Shown here: positions 21,552 to 34,216 of the stretch, one piece after another | Position numbering within the stretch: position 1 is the first letter of the stretch | Layout of the letters: the number at the start of each line of letters is the position of its first letter | Assembly (NCBI GenBank): GCA_016200355.1 | Contig: JACQEY010000239.1 | Span: 1-36,535, forward strand | Direction: 5' to 3' | DNA from: Nitrospirota bacterium | Lineage (GTDB): Bacteria; Nitrospirota; Nitrospiria; Nitrospirales; Nitrospiraceae | Length of the DNA stretch: 36,535 bases | Made by a program: the position numbers and the translations under genes | Notes under the pieces: generated by a model | The model's database searches: none | The model's input: the letters and a program-made list of their open reading frames with translations, nothing else | Told to the model about the DNA's origin: nothing

Positions 21552-22355
21552 CTATCGGAGACTCAGCACATCCATCATGTCGTACAGGCCTGGTGGCTGC
21601 CGAACCACCCACCGAGCGGCACGCAAAGCGCCTCCCGCGAAGGTATCCCGGCTACTCGCTCGATGCGTCACTTCGATGCGTTCACCCATCCCGCCAAAGA
21701 GAATCGTGTGGTCCCCGACAATGTCGCCGGCGCGGATTGTTTGAATTCCAATCTCACCCTTCTTGCGTTCCCCGATAAGGCCTTTTCTGGCATAAACGCC
21801 GACCTGATCTAGATCACGACTCACGGCCTTAGCCAAGACTTCCGCAATCTTGAGCGCCGTCCCACTCGGCGCATCTTTTTTTAAACGATGATGGGCTTCA
21901 ATCACTTCAATGTCGTAGTCATCCCCCAGCGTTTTTGCCATCTCGCTGATGACCTTGTAGATCAGATTGATACCCACGCTCATGTTGGGGGACAACACGC
22001 AGGGAACTTGACTCGCCAACGATTTTAGCTCTTCGACTTGGGGAGCGGTAAACCCCGTCGTGCCGATCACCATGGCTCGTCGATGTTGCGCCACGGTACG
22101 TAAATGATCTAGGGTCGCCTCAGGAGCGGAGAAATCGACGACCACTTCGCCTCTGTCGAGGAGCGCTGCGAAATCGTCGGTGATCGGTATGCCGGCACGG
22201 CCACAACCCGCTGTTTCCCCGGCATCGTCACCCACAGCGTAATGGCCTTTCTCTTCGATCGCACCAGCAAGCGTGAGGGTGGTCGAATCTTTAATAAGGG
22301 CAACCAGCCGGCAGCCCATGCGACCGGCAGCCCCTGCGACAATGACGTTGATCAT
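21552..22355 (-). CDS. dapB: 4-hydroxy-tetrahydrodipicolinate reductase
   Basis: DapB reduces the product of DapA with NAD(P)H to tetrahydrodipicolinate, the substrate of DapL. The 267-residue protein has the Rossmann motif VIVAGAAGRMG at the N-terminus and the catalytic signature EAHHRLKKDAPSGTA (His155, Lys160), then IGIQTIRAGDIVGDHTI. It is the last gene of the lysine group, 33 bp downstream of dapA on the minus strand. Confidence 0.95.
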   Translation of the reverse strand: MINVIVAGAAGRMGCRLVALIKDSTTLTLAGAIEEKGHYAVGDDAGETAGCGRAGIPITDDFAALLDRGEVVVDFSAPEATLDHLRTVAQHRRAMVIGTTGFTAPQVEELKSLASQVPCVLSPNMSVGINLIYKVISEMAKTLGDDYDIEVIEAHHRLKKDAPSGTALKIAEVLAKAVSRDLDQVGVYARKGLIGERKKGEIGIQTIRAGDIVGDHTILFGGMGERIEVTHRASSRDTFAGGALRAARWVVRQPPGLYDMMDVLSLR

Positions 22356-22388: not shown

Positions 22389-23261
22389 CTAAATGAGGCC
22401 TGCATCCTTTAGTGCTCGTGTGAGTTGGTCCCTCGTCTCAGTCGCCATGGCACAGAGCGGCAGCCGCAATTCTGGATCGATTTTCCCCATCATGCCTAAC
22501 GCGGTTTTCACCGGAATCGGATTGGTCTCGTAAAAAAGCGCCGTAAAGAGCGGCGACAATGCGAAATGAATCCGACGCGCCTCTTCAATCCGCCCGCTTA
22601 GAAAAGCCTTAACCAATTGAGCCATCTCGGATGGGACGATGTTCGACGTGACGCTAATAACACCTTTTCCTCCGACTGCCATCATGGGCAATGTCAGGGC
22701 ATCATCGCCGGCAAGGACCGTCATCCGGTCGCCACACGTACTTGCAATCTCAGAAGCCTGCTGGACTGATCCGCTGCCCTCTTTGATCCCGACAATGTTC
22801 TGTAGTCCACAAAGCCTTGCGACAGTGGACGGCAGCATGTTCACGCCGGTCCGGCCGGGAATGTTATACAGGATCTGTGGAAGATCCACAGACTCCGCGA
22901 TTGTTTTGTAGTGCCGATACAATCCCTCCTGCGTCGGCTTGTTATAGTACGGCGTAATGAGCAGCGCCCCATCGGCTCCCGCCTGCTTGGCATGCTTTGT
23001 CAGTGACACCGCTTCCGCCGTGCTGTTGGAACCAGCCCCGGCGATCACGGGGATGCGCCGATTGACCACCTCGACGGTCAATTCGACCACGCGGTGGTGT
23101 TCCTGGTGTGAGAGGGTGGCGGATTCACCGGTGGTGCCGCAGGGCACAATCCCGCTCGTTCCGTTGGTAATTTGCCATTCTATAAGATCGCCGAAGGCCC
23201 GCTCGTCGACTTTGCCATTCCGGAACGGGGTCACAATGGCGATCAATGCACCCGTAAACAT
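22389..23261 (-). CDS. dapA: 4-hydroxy-tetrahydrodipicolinate synthase
   Basis: DapA condenses pyruvate and aspartate semialdehyde, the first step committed to lysine. Key residues are present: Lys160 in IVGIKEGSG (Schiff base), Tyr132 in LYNIPGRTG, Tyr106 in TPYYNKPTQ and the GTTGES loop. I start at ATG 23261 (MFTGALIAIVTPF) because it has an aaggagt site and matches the family; the ORF track begins 11 codons earlier. Product 290 residues. It lies 29 bp downstream of lysA. Confidence 0.96.
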   Translation of the reverse strand: MFTGALIAIVTPFRNGKVDERAFGDLIEWQITNGTSGIVPCGTTGESATLSHQEHHRVVELTVEVVNRRIPVIAGAGSNSTAEAVSLTKHAKQAGADGALLITPYYNKPTQEGLYRHYKTIAESVDLPQILYNIPGRTGVNMLPSTVARLCGLQNIVGIKEGSGSVQQASEIASTCGDRMTVLAGDDALTLPMMAVGGKGVISVTSNIVPSEMAQLVKAFLSGRIEEARRIHFALSPLFTALFYETNPIPVKTALGMMGKIDPELRLPLCAMATETRDQLTRALKDAGLI

Positions 23262-23290: not shown

Positions 23291-24553
23291 TCAATCGAGG
23301 AATGCCGGAATCGTTTCGCCCTTTACCAAGTCGTCGTATGTCTCTCTGGTCTTGATGACGTGGATCTCCCCATCTCTGATCAGAACTTCCGGTACCCGCG
23401 GTCTCGAATTGTAATTGGAGGCCATCACAAATCCATAGGCCCCCGCGCTCATCACCGCAAGCATGTCCCCCGGATTAACCTCCGGCAATGACCGGTCCTT
23501 CGCCAGAAAATCGCCGGACTCACAGACCGGGCCCACAACATCAACCTGATGCTTGGGCCGCTGCAGCACCGCCTGTGACAAGGGGCGAATCTCGTGATAG
23601 GCCCCGTAGAGGCTTGGCCTGATCAGGTCGTTCATCGCCGCATCGACAATAATAAACCGTTTCGCTTCGCCATCCTTCCGATACAACACTTTCGTGACGA
23701 GAATGCCGGCATTGCCGACGATGACGCGGCCAGGTTCCATGATGAGGGTGACATTCAAGTCCTGCAGCAGCGGCGACACGGCATCCGCCAAATCTTGTGG
23801 TAACGGCGGCGTTTCATCCGAGTAGGTAATGCCGAGGCCTCCGCCGATATTGACGTACCGGATGTTGATTCCTTGAGCCTTCAAAGCTCCGACCAACTTC
23901 ACCACCTTCTTCACGGCCTCGACAAACGGCGTGACTTCCGTCAACTGTGACCCAATATGCTTATGAACCCCGACGACATCGATGTTGGCAAGCGAGGAAG
24001 CCAGTGTGAATTCTTCGAGCGCCCGGTCGGCGGCAATCCCGAACTTGCTCTTCTTGAGACCGGTCGAAATGTAGGGGTGCGTTTTCGGATCAATGTCAGG
24101 ATTGATACGGAGAGCAACTCGTGCCTTGGTCCCGACGGAGACAGCCACTTCATTAAGCGCCTGCAGTTCGGCCGAGGACTCGACATTGAACATGAGTACG
24201 TCGGCCTTCAAGGCTTCGCGAATCTCCTCCGCGCTCTTGCCGACACCCGCGAAGACAATCTTTGAGGGGGGAACGCCCGCCTTGAGCGCCCGAAAGAGTT
24301 CCCCGCCTGACACGATATCCACCCCGCTCCCCTCCTTTGCCATAAGGCGGAGGATCGCGATATTGGAATTGGCCTTCATGGCGAAGGCAATCACATGGGG
24401 TACGCTCTTGAAGGCCCCATCATAGGCCCGGAAATGACGAACGAGGGTCGCGTAGCTGTAGATATAGCACGGTGTGCCGACCTCCTTCGCAATCCGGCTG
24501 ACCGGCACCTGTTCACAATAGAGTTCGCCATGTCGATATTCGAAATTATGCAT
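23291..24553 (-). CDS. lysA: Diaminopimelate decarboxylase
   Basis: LysA makes lysine from meso-diaminopimelate with PLP. Lys60 in AFAMKANSN binds PLP; VHKHIGSQL, the CESGDFLAKDR motif with its catalytic Cys and AYGFVMASNYNSRPR are all family signatures. From ATG 24553 (MHNFEYRHGELY) the product is 420 residues. The start lies inside the end of the upstream radical SAM gene: the two share 8 bp (24546-24553), so lysA translation is probably coupled to it. A dapF-type epimerase is not in this window. Confidence 0.96.
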   Translation of the reverse strand: MHNFEYRHGELYCEQVPVSRIAKEVGTPCYIYSYATLVRHFRAYDGAFKSVPHVIAFAMKANSNIAILRLMAKEGSGVDIVSGGELFRALKAGVPPSKIVFAGVGKSAEEIREALKADVLMFNVESSAELQALNEVAVSVGTKARVALRINPDIDPKTHPYISTGLKKSKFGIAADRALEEFTLASSLANIDVVGVHKHIGSQLTEVTPFVEAVKKVVKLVGALKAQGINIRYVNIGGGLGITYSDETPPLPQDLADAVSPLLQDLNVTLIMEPGRVIVGNAGILVTKVLYRKDGEAKRFIIVDAAMNDLIRPSLYGAYHEIRPLSQAVLQRPKHQVDVVGPVCESGDFLAKDRSLPEVNPGDMLAVMSAGAYGFVMASNYNSRPRVPEVLIRDGEIHVIKTRETYDDLVKGETIPAFLD

Positions 24554-26474
24554 CCTGCAAATCTTCGTTGAGATGCTCGATGCCTGCGAGCGGGAAACCC
24601 TGCAAGGAGGCCTCGAACGCATCCTTGAATTTACGATAGCGGACCTTCACATTCGGAATGGCTACCTTCATTGCATTTGAATCCACTAACGCTTTGAGGG
24701 CGTCTGGCGTCGCCAGCTTGAGGTGTTCGAAGTTGACGATGATGTCCATGCGTGCCTGATTGGCCGCTTCCTTGATCCGCTTAATCAATTCCAAAGCATT
24801 CAGGCGATCAAGGGTACCCTCAAGATCCACGAACAGCGCAGCGAACTTATCATGCCGCTTGGCCTTGATGTGGAATATCAACTGTTGTGCCGAGAGCGTG
24901 TTCGGATCTAACGCCTGTTTCAGTGCATGCAGCGCGCTAGGAATCAATTGCTCCTTGTCCAACACCGGGAGCTTCGCTTGGAGATTCTTCAACACCCCCG
25001 CGAGCGGCGACAGGGACGCTTTGGGGCAGGTTCTCTTGACCAACTTCCGGAATTCCCGATTCATTTCCAATCGCGGAATGAATCGTTGACTCGTGCCCGA
25101 GAGCCGTTTCCAGATCGAGGGGATCGAATAGAACTCATGATTGGCCCAGTGGAATCCGTCCAGTAACTGCTCGACCGTCATCCGGCTCGGCTGGAACACC
25201 ACATGCTTGCCGTCGTACTTCGCCCAATCCCTATCGAAGATACGGCCGGACTTTTCGAAGCGGTCGAACAACTGCGTTCCAGGAAGAGGTGTCAACACGT
25301 TGAAGTACGCCAATTCCACCTTGTTCTTTGTCAAGAAATCGACGGCCCGTTCGAACACGGTCACATCGTCGCTGTCGAATCCGAATACGATCCCGGGATT
25401 CACCATGATCCCATAATCATGGAACATCTTGATCTCCTTGGAGAACTTCAGAACCCGGTTAAAGGGCTTGTTCGTTTCATCCAATGCATCTTCATCGAGC
25501 GATTCCATCCCGACGAAGACCGACACGCAGCCACTTTCTGCCGCAAGCTTGACCATCTCCTCGTCGTCAGCGAGGAACATCGTGGCCTGGCAGCCCCATT
25601 TAATCTTGAGCGGCTTCAGCGCGGCCCAGAGCTCACGACAATAGGCACGGTTGCTGTTGTGCAAGTCATCGACGAAGGCGACAATACTGCCGTCCTCGAT
25701 GCCGACCCGAATCCGAAGCGCGGTGAGCATGGCGCTCCACAGCGGCTCGTCGCCCAACCGCTCGACCAACTCGCTACGAATCCATCGCTGAACGTTTCGA
25801 AGCTCAGTGACCACTTCCTTCACCGGCCGGCGCCGCGTCGTCTTTCCGTTGAACGGGGACACGCTACAAAACTCGCAATCGAAATGGCACCCACGGGTCG
25901 TGAAACTACACTGTCTCGTCATGTACGAGTCGGGGCTTAGCAGTTCGACACGGGGACTCTTGTAATTCTCCAGAGAAGGGAAGGATGTCATCTTATACAT
26001 GCGCTGCATCTTTCCCGCCTCATAGTCCGCGACCAATTGCGGCCAGAGATCTTCGGCTTCTCCACAGACGATCGCATCCGCATGTTGAAGCGCTTCGTCG
26101 GGGCAGTAGGTGGGATGGACTCCTCCCATGACGATCGTCTTCCCTCTCTTGCGAAACTCTGCTGCGATCTCGTAGGCCCGGTGGGCATAGCAGGTAAACA
26201 TGGAGATGCCAACCATGTCGCAGGGAAAGTCGAAATCGATTTCGTGCACCGCTTCATCGACCAGACTGACTTCCCAATTCTCCGGCGTGTAGGCCGCAAT
26301 CGTCGGCAAACTCAGCTTGGGAAACCATACCGAACGGCGCTCAGAAGCGGTCAGTCGATAGGGATTGTTGAGCGGGTAGGGATCGACCAGTAAGAGCCGC
26401 TTGCCTGGTGCATGCTTGATCGTTGCCGTCTGCCCAATAAGCTGACTCTGCCGCACTGGTTGGATTAGCTCCAT
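24546..26474 (-). CDS. B12-binding radical SAM protein with C-terminal STAS-like domain
   Basis: The 642-residue protein has three parts. Residues about 25-150 match a cobalamin-binding (B12) domain (MVGISMFTCYAHRAY, IVMGGVHPTYCPDEAL). Residues about 185-460 form a radical SAM domain with the CxxxCxxC cluster motif CHFDCEFC (Cys196, 200, 203) and typical later motifs (GMESLDEDALDETNK, PGIVFGFDSD). Residues about 540-625 (LFVDLEGTLDRLNALELIKR, then FEHLKLATPDALKAL) resemble a STAS-like domain. B12 radical SAM enzymes methylate or rearrange unreactive carbons; the substrate here is unknown. The gene starts with a good aggagg site and overlaps lysA. Confidence 0.85.
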   Translation of the reverse strand: MELIQPVRQSQLIGQTATIKHAPGKRLLLVDPYPLNNPYRLTASERRSVWFPKLSLPTIAAYTPENWEVSLVDEAVHEIDFDFPCDMVGISMFTCYAHRAYEIAAEFRKRGKTIVMGGVHPTYCPDEALQHADAIVCGEAEDLWPQLVADYEAGKMQRMYKMTSFPSLENYKSPRVELLSPDSYMTRQCSFTTRGCHFDCEFCSVSPFNGKTTRRRPVKEVVTELRNVQRWIRSELVERLGDEPLWSAMLTALRIRVGIEDGSIVAFVDDLHNSNRAYCRELWAALKPLKIKWGCQATMFLADDEEMVKLAAESGCVSVFVGMESLDEDALDETNKPFNRVLKFSKEIKMFHDYGIMVNPGIVFGFDSDDVTVFERAVDFLTKNKVELAYFNVLTPLPGTQLFDRFEKSGRIFDRDWAKYDGKHVVFQPSRMTVEQLLDGFHWANHEFYSIPSIWKRLSGTSQRFIPRLEMNREFRKLVKRTCPKASLSPLAGVLKNLQAKLPVLDKEQLIPSALHALKQALDPNTLSAQQLIFHIKAKRHDKFAALFVDLEGTLDRLNALELIKRIKEAANQARMDIIVNFEHLKLATPDALKALVDSNAMKVAIPNVKVRYRKFKDAFEASLQGFPLAGIEHLNEDLQDA

Positions 26475-26564: not shown

Positions 26565-26643
26565 CCTTCGACTACGCTCAGGACGGACTTCTTCGTCGGA
26601 GCGAACTTCGGCCCTGCCCGCTCTGTCCTGAGCCTGTCGAAGG
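26565..26643. repeat. REP-like inverted repeat
   Basis: The left arm ccttcgactacgctcaggac (26565-26584) and right arm gtcctgagcctgtcgaagg (26625-26643) are inverted copies that share 17 bases around a 2-3 bp centre. Such ccttcgacaggctcaggac units are common dispersed repeats in bacterial genomes. This one lies in the 279-bp gap that separates the arginine and lysine blocks. Confidence 0.75.
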
Positions 26644-26753
26644 ATCGGCCTCGATAGCCGTAAGAACCTGTGCCATCCCTGCACAGCCGTTTACGCAATT
26701 AGGTAGTATAGCTTTATCCGGCTACACAGGTCCAGCAAATGACAGCCTCAACA

Positions 26754-27020
26754 TTACCGGGTTCCCACCGGTTGTACCGAGGGGAGATCGACATCCTGCC
26801 CCTGTAGCATTAGGTCCGGTTGTGATTCGGTCGATTCGGCTGCCGCTGCGGCCTCATGCTGTTTCTTTTCAAGCGCCTCTAACTTCTTTTGCCGCTCAAT
26901 GGTCGGAGTCACACCGACCATTTCAGGAGGAATCGGCGACCCCACGGTCCCGCAGGCCACCAACATTCCCATCGTCATACCCACGACGATAAACGTTGCT
27001 TGCGGCCTCCGCACCGTCAT
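26754..27020 (-). CDS. Small lipoprotein, LptM (YifL)-like
   Basis: The 88-residue protein has a signal peptide with lipobox LVAC and the mature start CGTVGSPIPPE, similar to the conserved CGxxGP start of LptM/YifL-type lipoproteins, which in Enterobacteria are encoded next to lysA/dapF. The rest is a charged, Gln- and Glu-rich tail. The ATG at 27020 overlaps the argH stop by 4 bp (ATGA). LptM assists maturation of LptD; whether this protein does so is inference. In this window it sits between argH and the lysine block. Confidence 0.65.
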   Translation of the reverse strand: MTVRRPQATFIVVGMTMGMLVACGTVGSPIPPEMVGVTPTIERQKKLEALEKKQHEAAAAAESTESQPDLMLQGQDVDLPSVQPVGTR

Positions 27021-28429
27021 GAGAACATCCTCTCGAGTTCTTGAATGCGCTGTTCCACTCTCGCTCGGGCAGTGCCGCCTACCTGAGACTTCCGATCGAT
27101 GGCGGAAGTGACTGTCAACCGAGCGAACAGACCCTTTTCAATTCGTTCGGAAAATGTCCGCAGCTCCTCAAGCGAGAAACTCGTGAGTTCGCGGCCTTGA
27201 TCCAGTGCAGCCCGCACCAGCCGGCCCGTGATCGCATGCGCCTCGCGAAATGGTACGCCCCTGGTCACAAGGTAGTCCGCCACTTCCGTGGCCAGCATCC
27301 CACCACCCTGAACCGCTTGCTTGAGAACGTCCCGGTTGACGGTGAGTCGGCGCATCAGTTCCGTCAAGACTTTCACCGAGGCAGTGACGGTATCGAGGGC
27401 ATCGAAGAGTGCCGGTTTATCTTCCTGAAGATCTCGATTATAGCTCAAGGGGAGAGCCTTGAGCGTCGTCAACAGATTGACCAAATGGCCATAGACCCGC
27501 CCCGTCTTGCCTCGCACCAATTCCGGCACATCGGGATTCTTCTTCTGCGGCATCATACTGCTCCCGGTACAGAAGGCGTCGGGAAGCTCAACGAATTGAA
27601 ACTCCTGGGACGACCAGAGAATTAATTCTTCACTGAGCCGGGACAGGTGCATCATCGTGATCGACAGCGCCGAGGCCACCTCGATGATGAAGTCCCGATC
27701 GGACACGGCATCGAGACTGTTTTGCGTCACGGAGGGAAAGCCCAACAGACCAGCGATGAACCGGCGATCGAGTGGGTAGTTCGTCCCCGCAAGTGCGCCG
27801 GACCCCAACGGCATGACATTCAAGCGCATTGATGCATCGCGAAATCGCCCCTTGTCCCGCTCGATCATTTCCACATAGGCCAAGAGATGATGCGCGAACA
27901 GCACCGGCTGGGCACGCTGGAGATGCGTATAGCCCGGCATGGCAACCGTTCGATTCGCCTTTCCCTTCGCCACCAAAACCCGCTGAAAGTTTTCCAGATG
28001 CTCCACGAGCTGACTGAGGTGATCCCGCATATAGAGCCGAATATCCAGCGCGACCTGGTCATTCCGGCTCCGGCCCGTGTGCAACTTGCCGCCGAGCGGA
28101 CCGATCAATTCTGTCAGCCGGCGCTCGATCGCCATGTGAATATCTTCATCCTGCGGGGTAAAGCGAAAGCGGCCCCGATCCAGTTCCGTCTTCACCGACT
28201 CCAGGCCCCGCACGATCGTCCTGGTTTCAGAGGCGGTCAACACGCGCGCCTTCCCTAACGTCTTGCAATGGGCGATGCTACCCTGAATGTCATAGACGTA
28301 GAGACGGCGATCGACCGACACAGATACGGTGAACGATTCCACCAACCGGTTCGTCTTGTGTCTGAACCGCCCGCTCCAAGCTTTTCCACCTTCCGGCGTG
28401 GCAGGGCTGCGGCCCGTTGCTCGTGCCAT
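27017..28429 (-). CDS. argH: Argininosuccinate lyase
   Basis: ArgH splits argininosuccinate to arginine and fumarate. The 470-residue protein carries the fumarase/aspartase signature GSSMMPQKKNPD near residue 285, plus HTGRSRNDQVALDIR near residue 100 and YTHLQRAQP. The ATG (28427-28429) shares one base with the argG stop (TGATG), so translation is probably coupled. Confidence 0.96.
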   Translation of the reverse strand: MARATGRSPATPEGGKAWSGRFRHKTNRLVESFTVSVSVDRRLYVYDIQGSIAHCKTLGKARVLTASETRTIVRGLESVKTELDRGRFRFTPQDEDIHMAIERRLTELIGPLGGKLHTGRSRNDQVALDIRLYMRDHLSQLVEHLENFQRVLVAKGKANRTVAMPGYTHLQRAQPVLFAHHLLAYVEMIERDKGRFRDASMRLNVMPLGSGALAGTNYPLDRRFIAGLLGFPSVTQNSLDAVSDRDFIIEVASALSITMMHLSRLSEELILWSSQEFQFVELPDAFCTGSSMMPQKKNPDVPELVRGKTGRVYGHLVNLLTTLKALPLSYNRDLQEDKPALFDALDTVTASVKVLTELMRRLTVNRDVLKQAVQGGGMLATEVADYLVTRGVPFREAHAITGRLVRAALDQGRELTSFSLEELRTFSERIEKGLFARLTVTSAIDRKSQVGGTARARVEQRIQELERMFS

Positions 28430-32791: not shown

Positions 32792-32841
32792 GAGCACGTC
32801 GTCGTGTGTGAGCCACGATGTCCGCTCTTGGAGGGTCGTCC

Positions 32842-33066
32842 ATGCGCTACGAACGAATCAGCATCGATCCGCAGATCTGTAGCGGCAAACCCTGTATTCG
32901 TGGGACTCGAATTATGGTGACGAACATCCTCGGGTTGATCGCCGGGGGCTACACGAACGAGCAGATTCTTCACACCTACCCGGAGCTGACCCGCGAAGAT
33001 CTTGCCGCCGCGCTGGACTATGTCAGTCACGTGGTCGACGAAGACAAAGTGATTCCTCGTGCCTGA
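32842..33066 (+). CDS. DUF433 protein, putative antitoxin
   Basis: The 74-residue product (MRYERISIDPQICSGKPCIRGTRI) matches DUF433, a small winged or helix-turn-helix-like family often encoded before DUF5615 (Mut7-C/PIN-like) proteins. The pair is thought to act as a toxin-antitoxin or RNA-linked module, with this protein the antitoxin and operon regulator. I start at ATG 32842 because a ggagg site precedes it; the ORF track begins 8 codons earlier. Its stop overlaps the DUF5615-like frame by 8 bp. Confidence 0.85.
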   Translation: MRYERISIDPQICSGKPCIRGTRIMVTNILGLIAGGYTNEQILHTYPELTREDLAAALDYVSHVVDEDKVIPRA

Positions 33067-33612: not shown

Positions 33613-33624
33613 ATGAGGTGCGCC

Positions 33625-33918
33625 ATGGCCGTCGCATACAAGAAAGATGAAATACTCAGCGCTTCCAAAGTAGCGCGTTCCTTCGGACAGGTATTGGCTG
33701 ATCTAAGCGGTAAACGCCGCCGCCGCGTGGCGGTCGTCAAGAACAACCACTTGGAGGCGATTCTCCTCCCCATTGAGGACTACGAAACGATGGCGGAGGC
33801 CCTTGCCATTCTGGAACATCTTGAGATCTATCGTCTCGTACAGGAACGGAAAGGCAAGAAACGTCCCAACACCATTAGCCTCGATGCCTTGCTGAAGGAA
33901 CAACGCCTTGCCGTATAG
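33625..33918 (+). CDS. Phd/YefM-like antitoxin
   Basis: The 97-residue product (MAVAYKKDEILSASKVARSFGQVLADL) has the N-terminal Phd/YefM DNA-binding fold, then an acidic C-terminal helix (LEHLEIYRLVQERKGKKRPN) likely to bind the toxin. A gaggtg site precedes the ATG; the ORF track start at 33613 is less likely. Its end overlaps the toxin start by 11 bp, so the two are coupled. Confidence 0.9.
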   Translation: MAVAYKKDEILSASKVARSFGQVLADLSGKRRRRVAVVKNNHLEAILLPIEDYETMAEALAILEHLEIYRLVQERKGKKRPNTISLDALLKEQRLAV

Positions 33919-34216
33919 AGTCACCCTTACGGCGGAGGCTGCCGACGACTTTCGGCACCTCGATGGTTCCCTGAAAAAACAGGTCGCCAAGCAGCTTAAA
34001 AAGCTCGAAACGTCTCCCCTTCTCGGCGAGCACTTGGGAAATAGGGCAGGTCTCGACCTCACAGGCTATTACAAGCTCTATGCGGCAAAGAAGGGGGTCA
34101 GAATCGTCTACCGCATCATTGAACAGAACATAATTGTGGAAGTGGTGGCGATCGGGAAACGTGAGGACATGAGCGTCTACCAAACCTCGCTCAAGCGAAT
34201 CAGCTCAACATCCTGA
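33908..34216 (+). CDS. RelE/ParE-like toxin
   Basis: The 102-residue product starts at TTG 33908 inside the antitoxin gene. It shows the RelE/ParE fold: VTLTAEAADDFRHLDGSLKKQ, LDLTGYYKLYAAKKGVRIVYRI and VVAIGKRED. The Lys/Arg residues in the YYKLYAAKKGVRIVYRI strand are those that often act in RelE mRNA cleavage, but ParE-type gyrase action cannot be excluded. It is intact and fully paired with its antitoxin. Confidence 0.88.
   Translation: MPYRVTLTAEAADDFRHLDGSLKKQVAKQLKKLETSPLLGEHLGNRAGLDLTGYYKLYAAKKGVRIVYRIIEQNIIVEVVAIGKREDMSVYQTSLKRISSTS

Follow-up and report, generated by a model that had tools for sequence, protein, structure and literature searches.

A B12-binding radical SAM protein with a C-terminal STAS domain encoded beside lysA in Nitrospirota

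Gene neighborhood and overlap with lysA

The window, i.e. the whole stretch of 36,535 nucleotides that was analysed (contig JACQEY010000239.1), comes from a genome that carries amoA/pmoA-family genes; among named genomes, Nitrospira MAGs are closest to it, and the organism is very likely a comammox-type Nitrospira. On the minus strand, at 24546..26474, lies a gene for a protein of 642 amino acids (P0001) with B12-binding, radical SAM, DUF4070-like and STAS regions, as delineated by its open reading frame, Pfam matches and Ka/Ks values. It starts with the ATG at 26474, with a ribosome-binding site, GAGGAGG (26489-26483), 8 nt upstream. On its upstream side and on the same strand there is a gene for a small lipoprotein with a VACG lipobox (26754..27020), which is conserved in orthologous loci, gives no match in a Pfam search and is LptM/YifL-like by position only, followed by argH for argininosuccinate lyase (27017..28429; PF00206, 3e-79) and then argG, argF and argD. 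Downstream are lysA for diaminopimelate decarboxylase (23291..24553, minus strand; PF02784, 1.1e-67 and PF00278, 4.9e-32) and, with conserved synteny, the other genes of the lysine unit on that strand, dapA (22389..23261) and dapB (21552..22355).

The start of lysA is at 24553 (MHNFEYRHGELYCEQ), inside the last codons of the radical SAM-STAS gene, and the preliminary description was right in claiming that the two genes share 8 bp, namely ATGCATAA at 24546..24553 on the minus strand. Of 67 locus rows, which include some re-fetched copies, 51 have an overlap of exactly this length, and it is kept across Nitrospirales. Because the lysA start lies within it, the upstream gene is probably translated together with lysA, and it is plausible from the overlap that its product is made in step with LysA.

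Orthologues were surveyed within Nitrospirota with a single-sequence query on genomes sampled evenly from a larger group. The order argH, lipoprotein gene, radical SAM-STAS gene, lysA recurs in the orthologous Nitrospiria loci (52-95% identity) and, with or without the lipoprotein gene, in several of the distant loci of the same phylum (L061-L064, L069 and L070), which we infer to belong to the class Thermodesulfovibrionia. As the order holds across Nitrospiria and a part of Thermodesulfovibrionia, the place of the gene beside lysA is not due to chance, which settles the question to which the preliminary description had directed a survey of lysA neighborhoods. In six further Thermodesulfovibrionia loci (L056, L058, L060, L065, L066 and L071) the gene sits behind argH and lysA was not found downstream, making argH the more constant neighbor of the two. 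Distances among the radical SAM-STAS proteins track those among the LysA proteins (Mantel r 0.86 for n = 53, against a null maximum of 0.25), the pattern that vertical inheritance would produce. A locus labelled Nitrospinota (L024, JACZVJ010000038.1) carries the operon of the Nitrospirales type in full, at 67% identity, and its label may be a misclassification. In L065 (1392-8470) the orthologue, a distant one, is followed on the same strand by apparent dnaA, dnaN and gyrB genes, and thus likely sits at a replication origin.

A weak promoter-like site, TGGACC-18-TATACT, lies at 26705..26734 on the minus strand (1 found against 0.3 expected), in the spacer that separates the radical SAM-STAS gene from the lipoprotein gene; its GCTATACT core is also present in the lipoprotein-lysA spacer of three loci that have lost the gene (L075, L076 and L079). 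The spacer in the window also has an inverted repeat at 26576-26633, with 12-nt arms that are 92% complementary and 34 nt apart, which looks like a REP-type element. Elsewhere in the window, 33613-34216 likely encodes a type II toxin-antitoxin pair comprised of a Phd/YefM-like antitoxin, whose match is under the cut-off (E 4.8e-5), and a ParE-family toxin (7.5e-8), and 32818-33066 encodes a protein of the DUF433 family (4.2e-25), members of which are often paired with a toxin-like gene.

The enzyme part

The three-part architecture proposed earlier was recovered, its first two parts by direct Pfam matches and its STAS part through orthologues, profiles and fold comparison. The N-terminal Rossmann domain of the B12-binding family, which marks cobalamin-dependent radical SAM enzymes, spans residues 53-147 (26034..26318, minus strand; PF02310, E 8.9e-11) and was detected with Pfam in all 26 of 26 orthologues. 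It is followed by the radical SAM core at residues 192-359 (25398..25901, minus strand; PF04055, E 2.5e-14), within which the CxxxCxxC cluster motif that defines the superfamily is formed by C196, C200 and C203 (25866..25889, minus strand); all three cysteines are invariant in 65/65 orthologues, as is the R194-G195 pair beside them. An insertion of about 32 amino acids in this core (residues ~229-260; 25695..25790, minus strand) is shared by the aligned Nitrospiria orthologues and absent from those of Thermodesulfovibrionia (alignment A2). Residues 400-465 (25080..25277, minus strand) form a DUF4070-like stretch, with a score in the window protein that falls under the cut-off (19.2 against 22; E 0.0013) and matches in 24 of 26 orthologues, the best at 4.1e-5.

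A layout of B12-binding, radical SAM and DUF4070 domains is that described for HpnP-like proteins (PMC10697835). The likeness to HpnP and its relatives, the hopanoid C-2 methylase class, is one of described layout, with the three N-terminal regions in the same order and the DUF4070-like one under the cut-off in the window protein; the protein under study differs in its additional C-terminal STAS domain and in having orthologues in genomes that lack squalene-hopene cyclase. None of the NCBIfam equivalogs (BchE, HpnJ, HpnR, the lipid "ladder" B12-radical SAM family, AprD4 and others) was matched over its curated cut-off, the best being a partial match to BchE (TIGR02026) at 87 bits against a cut-off of 481. 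Foldseek searches with the full-length AlphaFold model, which is of low confidence (pLDDT 50), retrieved the cobalamin-class radical SAM enzymes AprD4, OxsB, MgmA, TsrM, TokK and CysS (E 1e-10 to 2e-6; 11-17% identity in the fold alignments), with STAS structures lower in the list matching the tail. Neither this model nor that of the tail by itself is confident, because the set of input loci was shallow (one scan). None of these six enzymes is known to have a STAS domain. AprD4 and MgmA (9ccb) match the protein by sequence too, and, since AprD4 is the nearest solved structure by sequence and is an enzyme of such fold that is not known to use cobalamin, the use of B12 predicted from the N-terminal domain is probable rather than certain. 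Plasmid-borne homologues of about 30% identity have a match that reaches residue 496 at best, and therefore do not display the STAS tail.

The STAS tail and its phospho-acceptor position

Searched by itself against Pfam, the window protein shows no STAS match in its tail (residues ~531-625; 24600..24884, minus strand). Among its orthologues, PF01740 (STAS) is matched by 20 of 26, with a best E of 1.6e-6, and STAS_2 by 10, and the orthologue in L056 passes the PF01740 gathering cut-off (26.1 against 22.6 bits). A profile built from 24 tails and run against all PDB sequences placed SpoIIAA (1auz) at the top (E 6e-4), and a profile-profile comparison (hhalign) of the tails with genuine STAS domains from relatives scored 43.9 with a probability of 93%, as against a maximum of 14.5 in 20 column shuffles. 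The AlphaFold model of the tail, which is likewise of low confidence (mean pLDDT 52), has the alternating order of strands and helices expected of STAS, and its best 15 Foldseek matches are all STAS structures. These lines of evidence draw on overlapping sets of tails and are not fully independent, yet they are concordant. As the orthologue, profile and fold searches agree, the structure-prediction check did not overturn the earlier assignment, and by homology the tail can be assigned the STAS fold.

The STAS phosphosite lies in the β3-α2 loop (PMC10120452), and a serine or threonine at the phospho-acceptor position is broadly conserved among STAS proteins, including MlaB (PMC7367683). In the hhalign columns T589-P590-D591 of the window protein pair with the Asp-Ser-Ser/Ala of classical STAS domains, so that P590 (24705..24707, minus strand) stands where SpoIIAA-type domains have their phosphorylated serine. 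It is a proline in 65/65 orthologues, and within the STAS core G553, D556 and N581 do not vary either. The tail is thus alike in profile and fold to the anti-anti-sigma factors SpoIIAA and RsbV, and differs from them in its invariant proline at the phosphoserine position, in place of the serine or threonine of these switches, and in its fusion to an enzyme. Because of this proline a SpoIIAA-type kinase switch is unlikely, which weakens the earlier idea that the STAS domain acts as an on/off switch. In the loci examined, no anti-sigma factor, kinase or other evident partner for a STAS domain was seen next to the gene. MlaB, the STAS subunit of the MlaFEDB lipid transporter, is among the Foldseek matches of the tail model; it differs in being a stand-alone single domain with Thr52 at the phospho position. 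Its interaction with MlaF is a precedent for the docking of a STAS domain to a partner other than a sigma-factor regulator (PMC7367683).

Repeated loss with retention of lysA

The radical SAM-STAS gene is present in 37 of 175 genomes of the family (24 of the 114 near-complete ones) and absent from the other 138, some of them incomplete. On the LysA tree its presence changes eight times, with supported branches forcing at least six changes; since the gene is present in the outgroup, losses, about eight of them in the sampled tree, are the simplest reading. Between the stop codon of the lipoprotein gene and lysA, deletion scars stand out significantly from shuffled controls and differ in their end points, the remnant beginning at nt 1616 of the gene in L075, at ~nt 1800 in L077 and L078, at ~nt 1845 in L080 and L081 and at nt 1866 in L082. 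In all six of these loci the final codons of the gene, just ahead of the lysA ATG, survive. In L076 and L079 the best alignments are to an internal stretch of the gene and not to its 3' end, and no convincing scar was found on aligning L083-L085, L088-L090 and L092 to the gene. The comparison extends to L094, a locus that starts within lysA. Where the gene is retained it is under purifying selection, the STAS domain like the core, with Ka/Ks against orthologues of 0.05-0.11 overall and 0.04-0.08 for the STAS domain where Ks is measurable.

A gene of lysine biosynthesis should be needed wherever lysA works, and lysA is kept in 20 of 20 examined family genomes that lack the radical SAM-STAS gene; it follows that the latter is not needed for lysine synthesis. 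This repeated loss with lysA kept, along with the orthologues behind argH without a lysA found nearby and the second copies elsewhere, tells against a role that is linked to lysine or diaminopimelate or that depends on lysA. Purifying selection in conjunction with repeated loss instead indicates a functional, accessory gene that is no lysine gene, and the fusion is an old one, ancient in Nitrospirota.

Candidate substrates and alternative explanations

Presence of the gene showed no significant relationship to amoA, and hence ammonia oxidation, in the genus (7/12 against 6/20; Fisher p 0.15). An HpnP-type hopanoid methylase would be expected to occur with squalene-hopene cyclase, which is encoded by 167 of 175 family genomes; outside the family 19 of the 28 orthologue-bearing genomes, including 13 of 21 near-complete ones, have no cyclase match, and hopanoids are therefore ruled out as the general substrate. 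Two genomes have second copies of the gene away from lysA: one (L126:4632-6587) is ~100 bp after a gene for MlaC (L126:6672-7241; PF05494, 1.6e-37), and the other (L125:4976-6859) is between two SPFH/Band 7 genes. Together with the STAS tail these settings, though seen in no more than two cases, hint at envelope lipids.

One account of the conserved neighborhood would be an enzyme linked to lysine, diaminopimelate or peptidoglycan, kept beside lysA because it modifies a metabolite of the LysA reaction. The adjacency and the exact overlap across Nitrospirales speak for it, but we consider it very unlikely in view of the six or more independent losses that left lysA intact, the six loci with argH and no lysA found, and the second copies in L125 and L126. 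Alternatively, the position may be devoid of functional meaning, the start and ribosome-binding region of lysA in the 3' end of the gene constraining its removal while the enzyme itself is unrelated to the operon. The codons preserved before the lysA ATG in the six scarred loci and the number of losses are both in line with such a constraint, to which we give somewhat less than an even chance; the lysA start does not, however, explain why adjacency to argH and the lipoprotein gene persists where no lysA lies downstream. This account concerns only the place of the gene, and can be compatible with the explanation that we favor below.

As for the activity itself, STAS domains are mostly regulatory and the tail resembles SpoIIAA/RsbV, so one could envisage a signalling device in which an idle radical SAM domain senses B12 or redox state and controls a sigma-factor or stressosome partner via STAS. 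We give this little credence: 65 orthologues share the cluster cysteines and core residues without variation, purifying selection on the core is strong, an invariant proline replaces the phospho-acceptor, and the loci examined showed neither a kinase nor an anti-sigma gene beside the radical SAM-STAS gene. A less remote alternative, though still an unlikely one, is an enzyme like HpnP, HpnR or HpnJ that modifies hopanoids or other lipids, with the STAS domain docking it to a lipid-transport complex in the manner of MlaB. The HpnP-like layout (PMC10697835), the prevalence of the cyclase in the family and the settings of the second copies are consistent with this proposal, but the cyclase is missing from most of the orthologue-bearing genomes tested outside the family, which counts against hopanoids and leaves other lipids as candidates, and the link to MlaC is seen in one case only.

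On balance we regard as probable a catalytically intact radical SAM enzyme of the cobalamin class with a non-phosphorylatable STAS module for docking or dimerization, which is accessory and dispensable for lysine synthesis. In such an enzyme the [4Fe-4S] cluster held by C196, C200 and C203 would cleave SAM reductively, with a cobalamin-assisted methyl transfer or radical rearrangement following on a small molecule or lipid. By analogy with STAS domains elsewhere, the tail would serve as a constitutive docking or dimerization surface and would tether the enzyme to another protein or to a complex, and translation would be coupled to lysA in the arg-lys operon. A more far-reaching and tentative version, which we rate as possible but clearly less probable, is that the protein represents an undescribed class of cobalamin-type radical SAM enzymes, ancestral to Nitrospirota and tied to lysine genes translationally, whose non-phosphorylatable STAS domain docks these enzymes to partner machinery such as a lipid-transport or envelope complex.

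Implications

So far STAS domains have been described chiefly in sigma-factor control, in anion transporters and in lipid ABC transporters, and no described radical SAM enzyme is known to carry one for docking. A search of a collection of papers found none that describes a B12-binding/radical SAM/STAS fusion, and none that treats comammox together with radical SAM; a paper on NTP-dependent conflict systems reportedly mentions both radical SAM and STAS domains. The fusion brings a protein-docking domain into a family of radical enzymes with mostly unassigned substrates. As it has been lost repeatedly between close relatives, sister strains that have the gene and ones that lack it could reveal its product when their metabolite or lipid profiles are compared.
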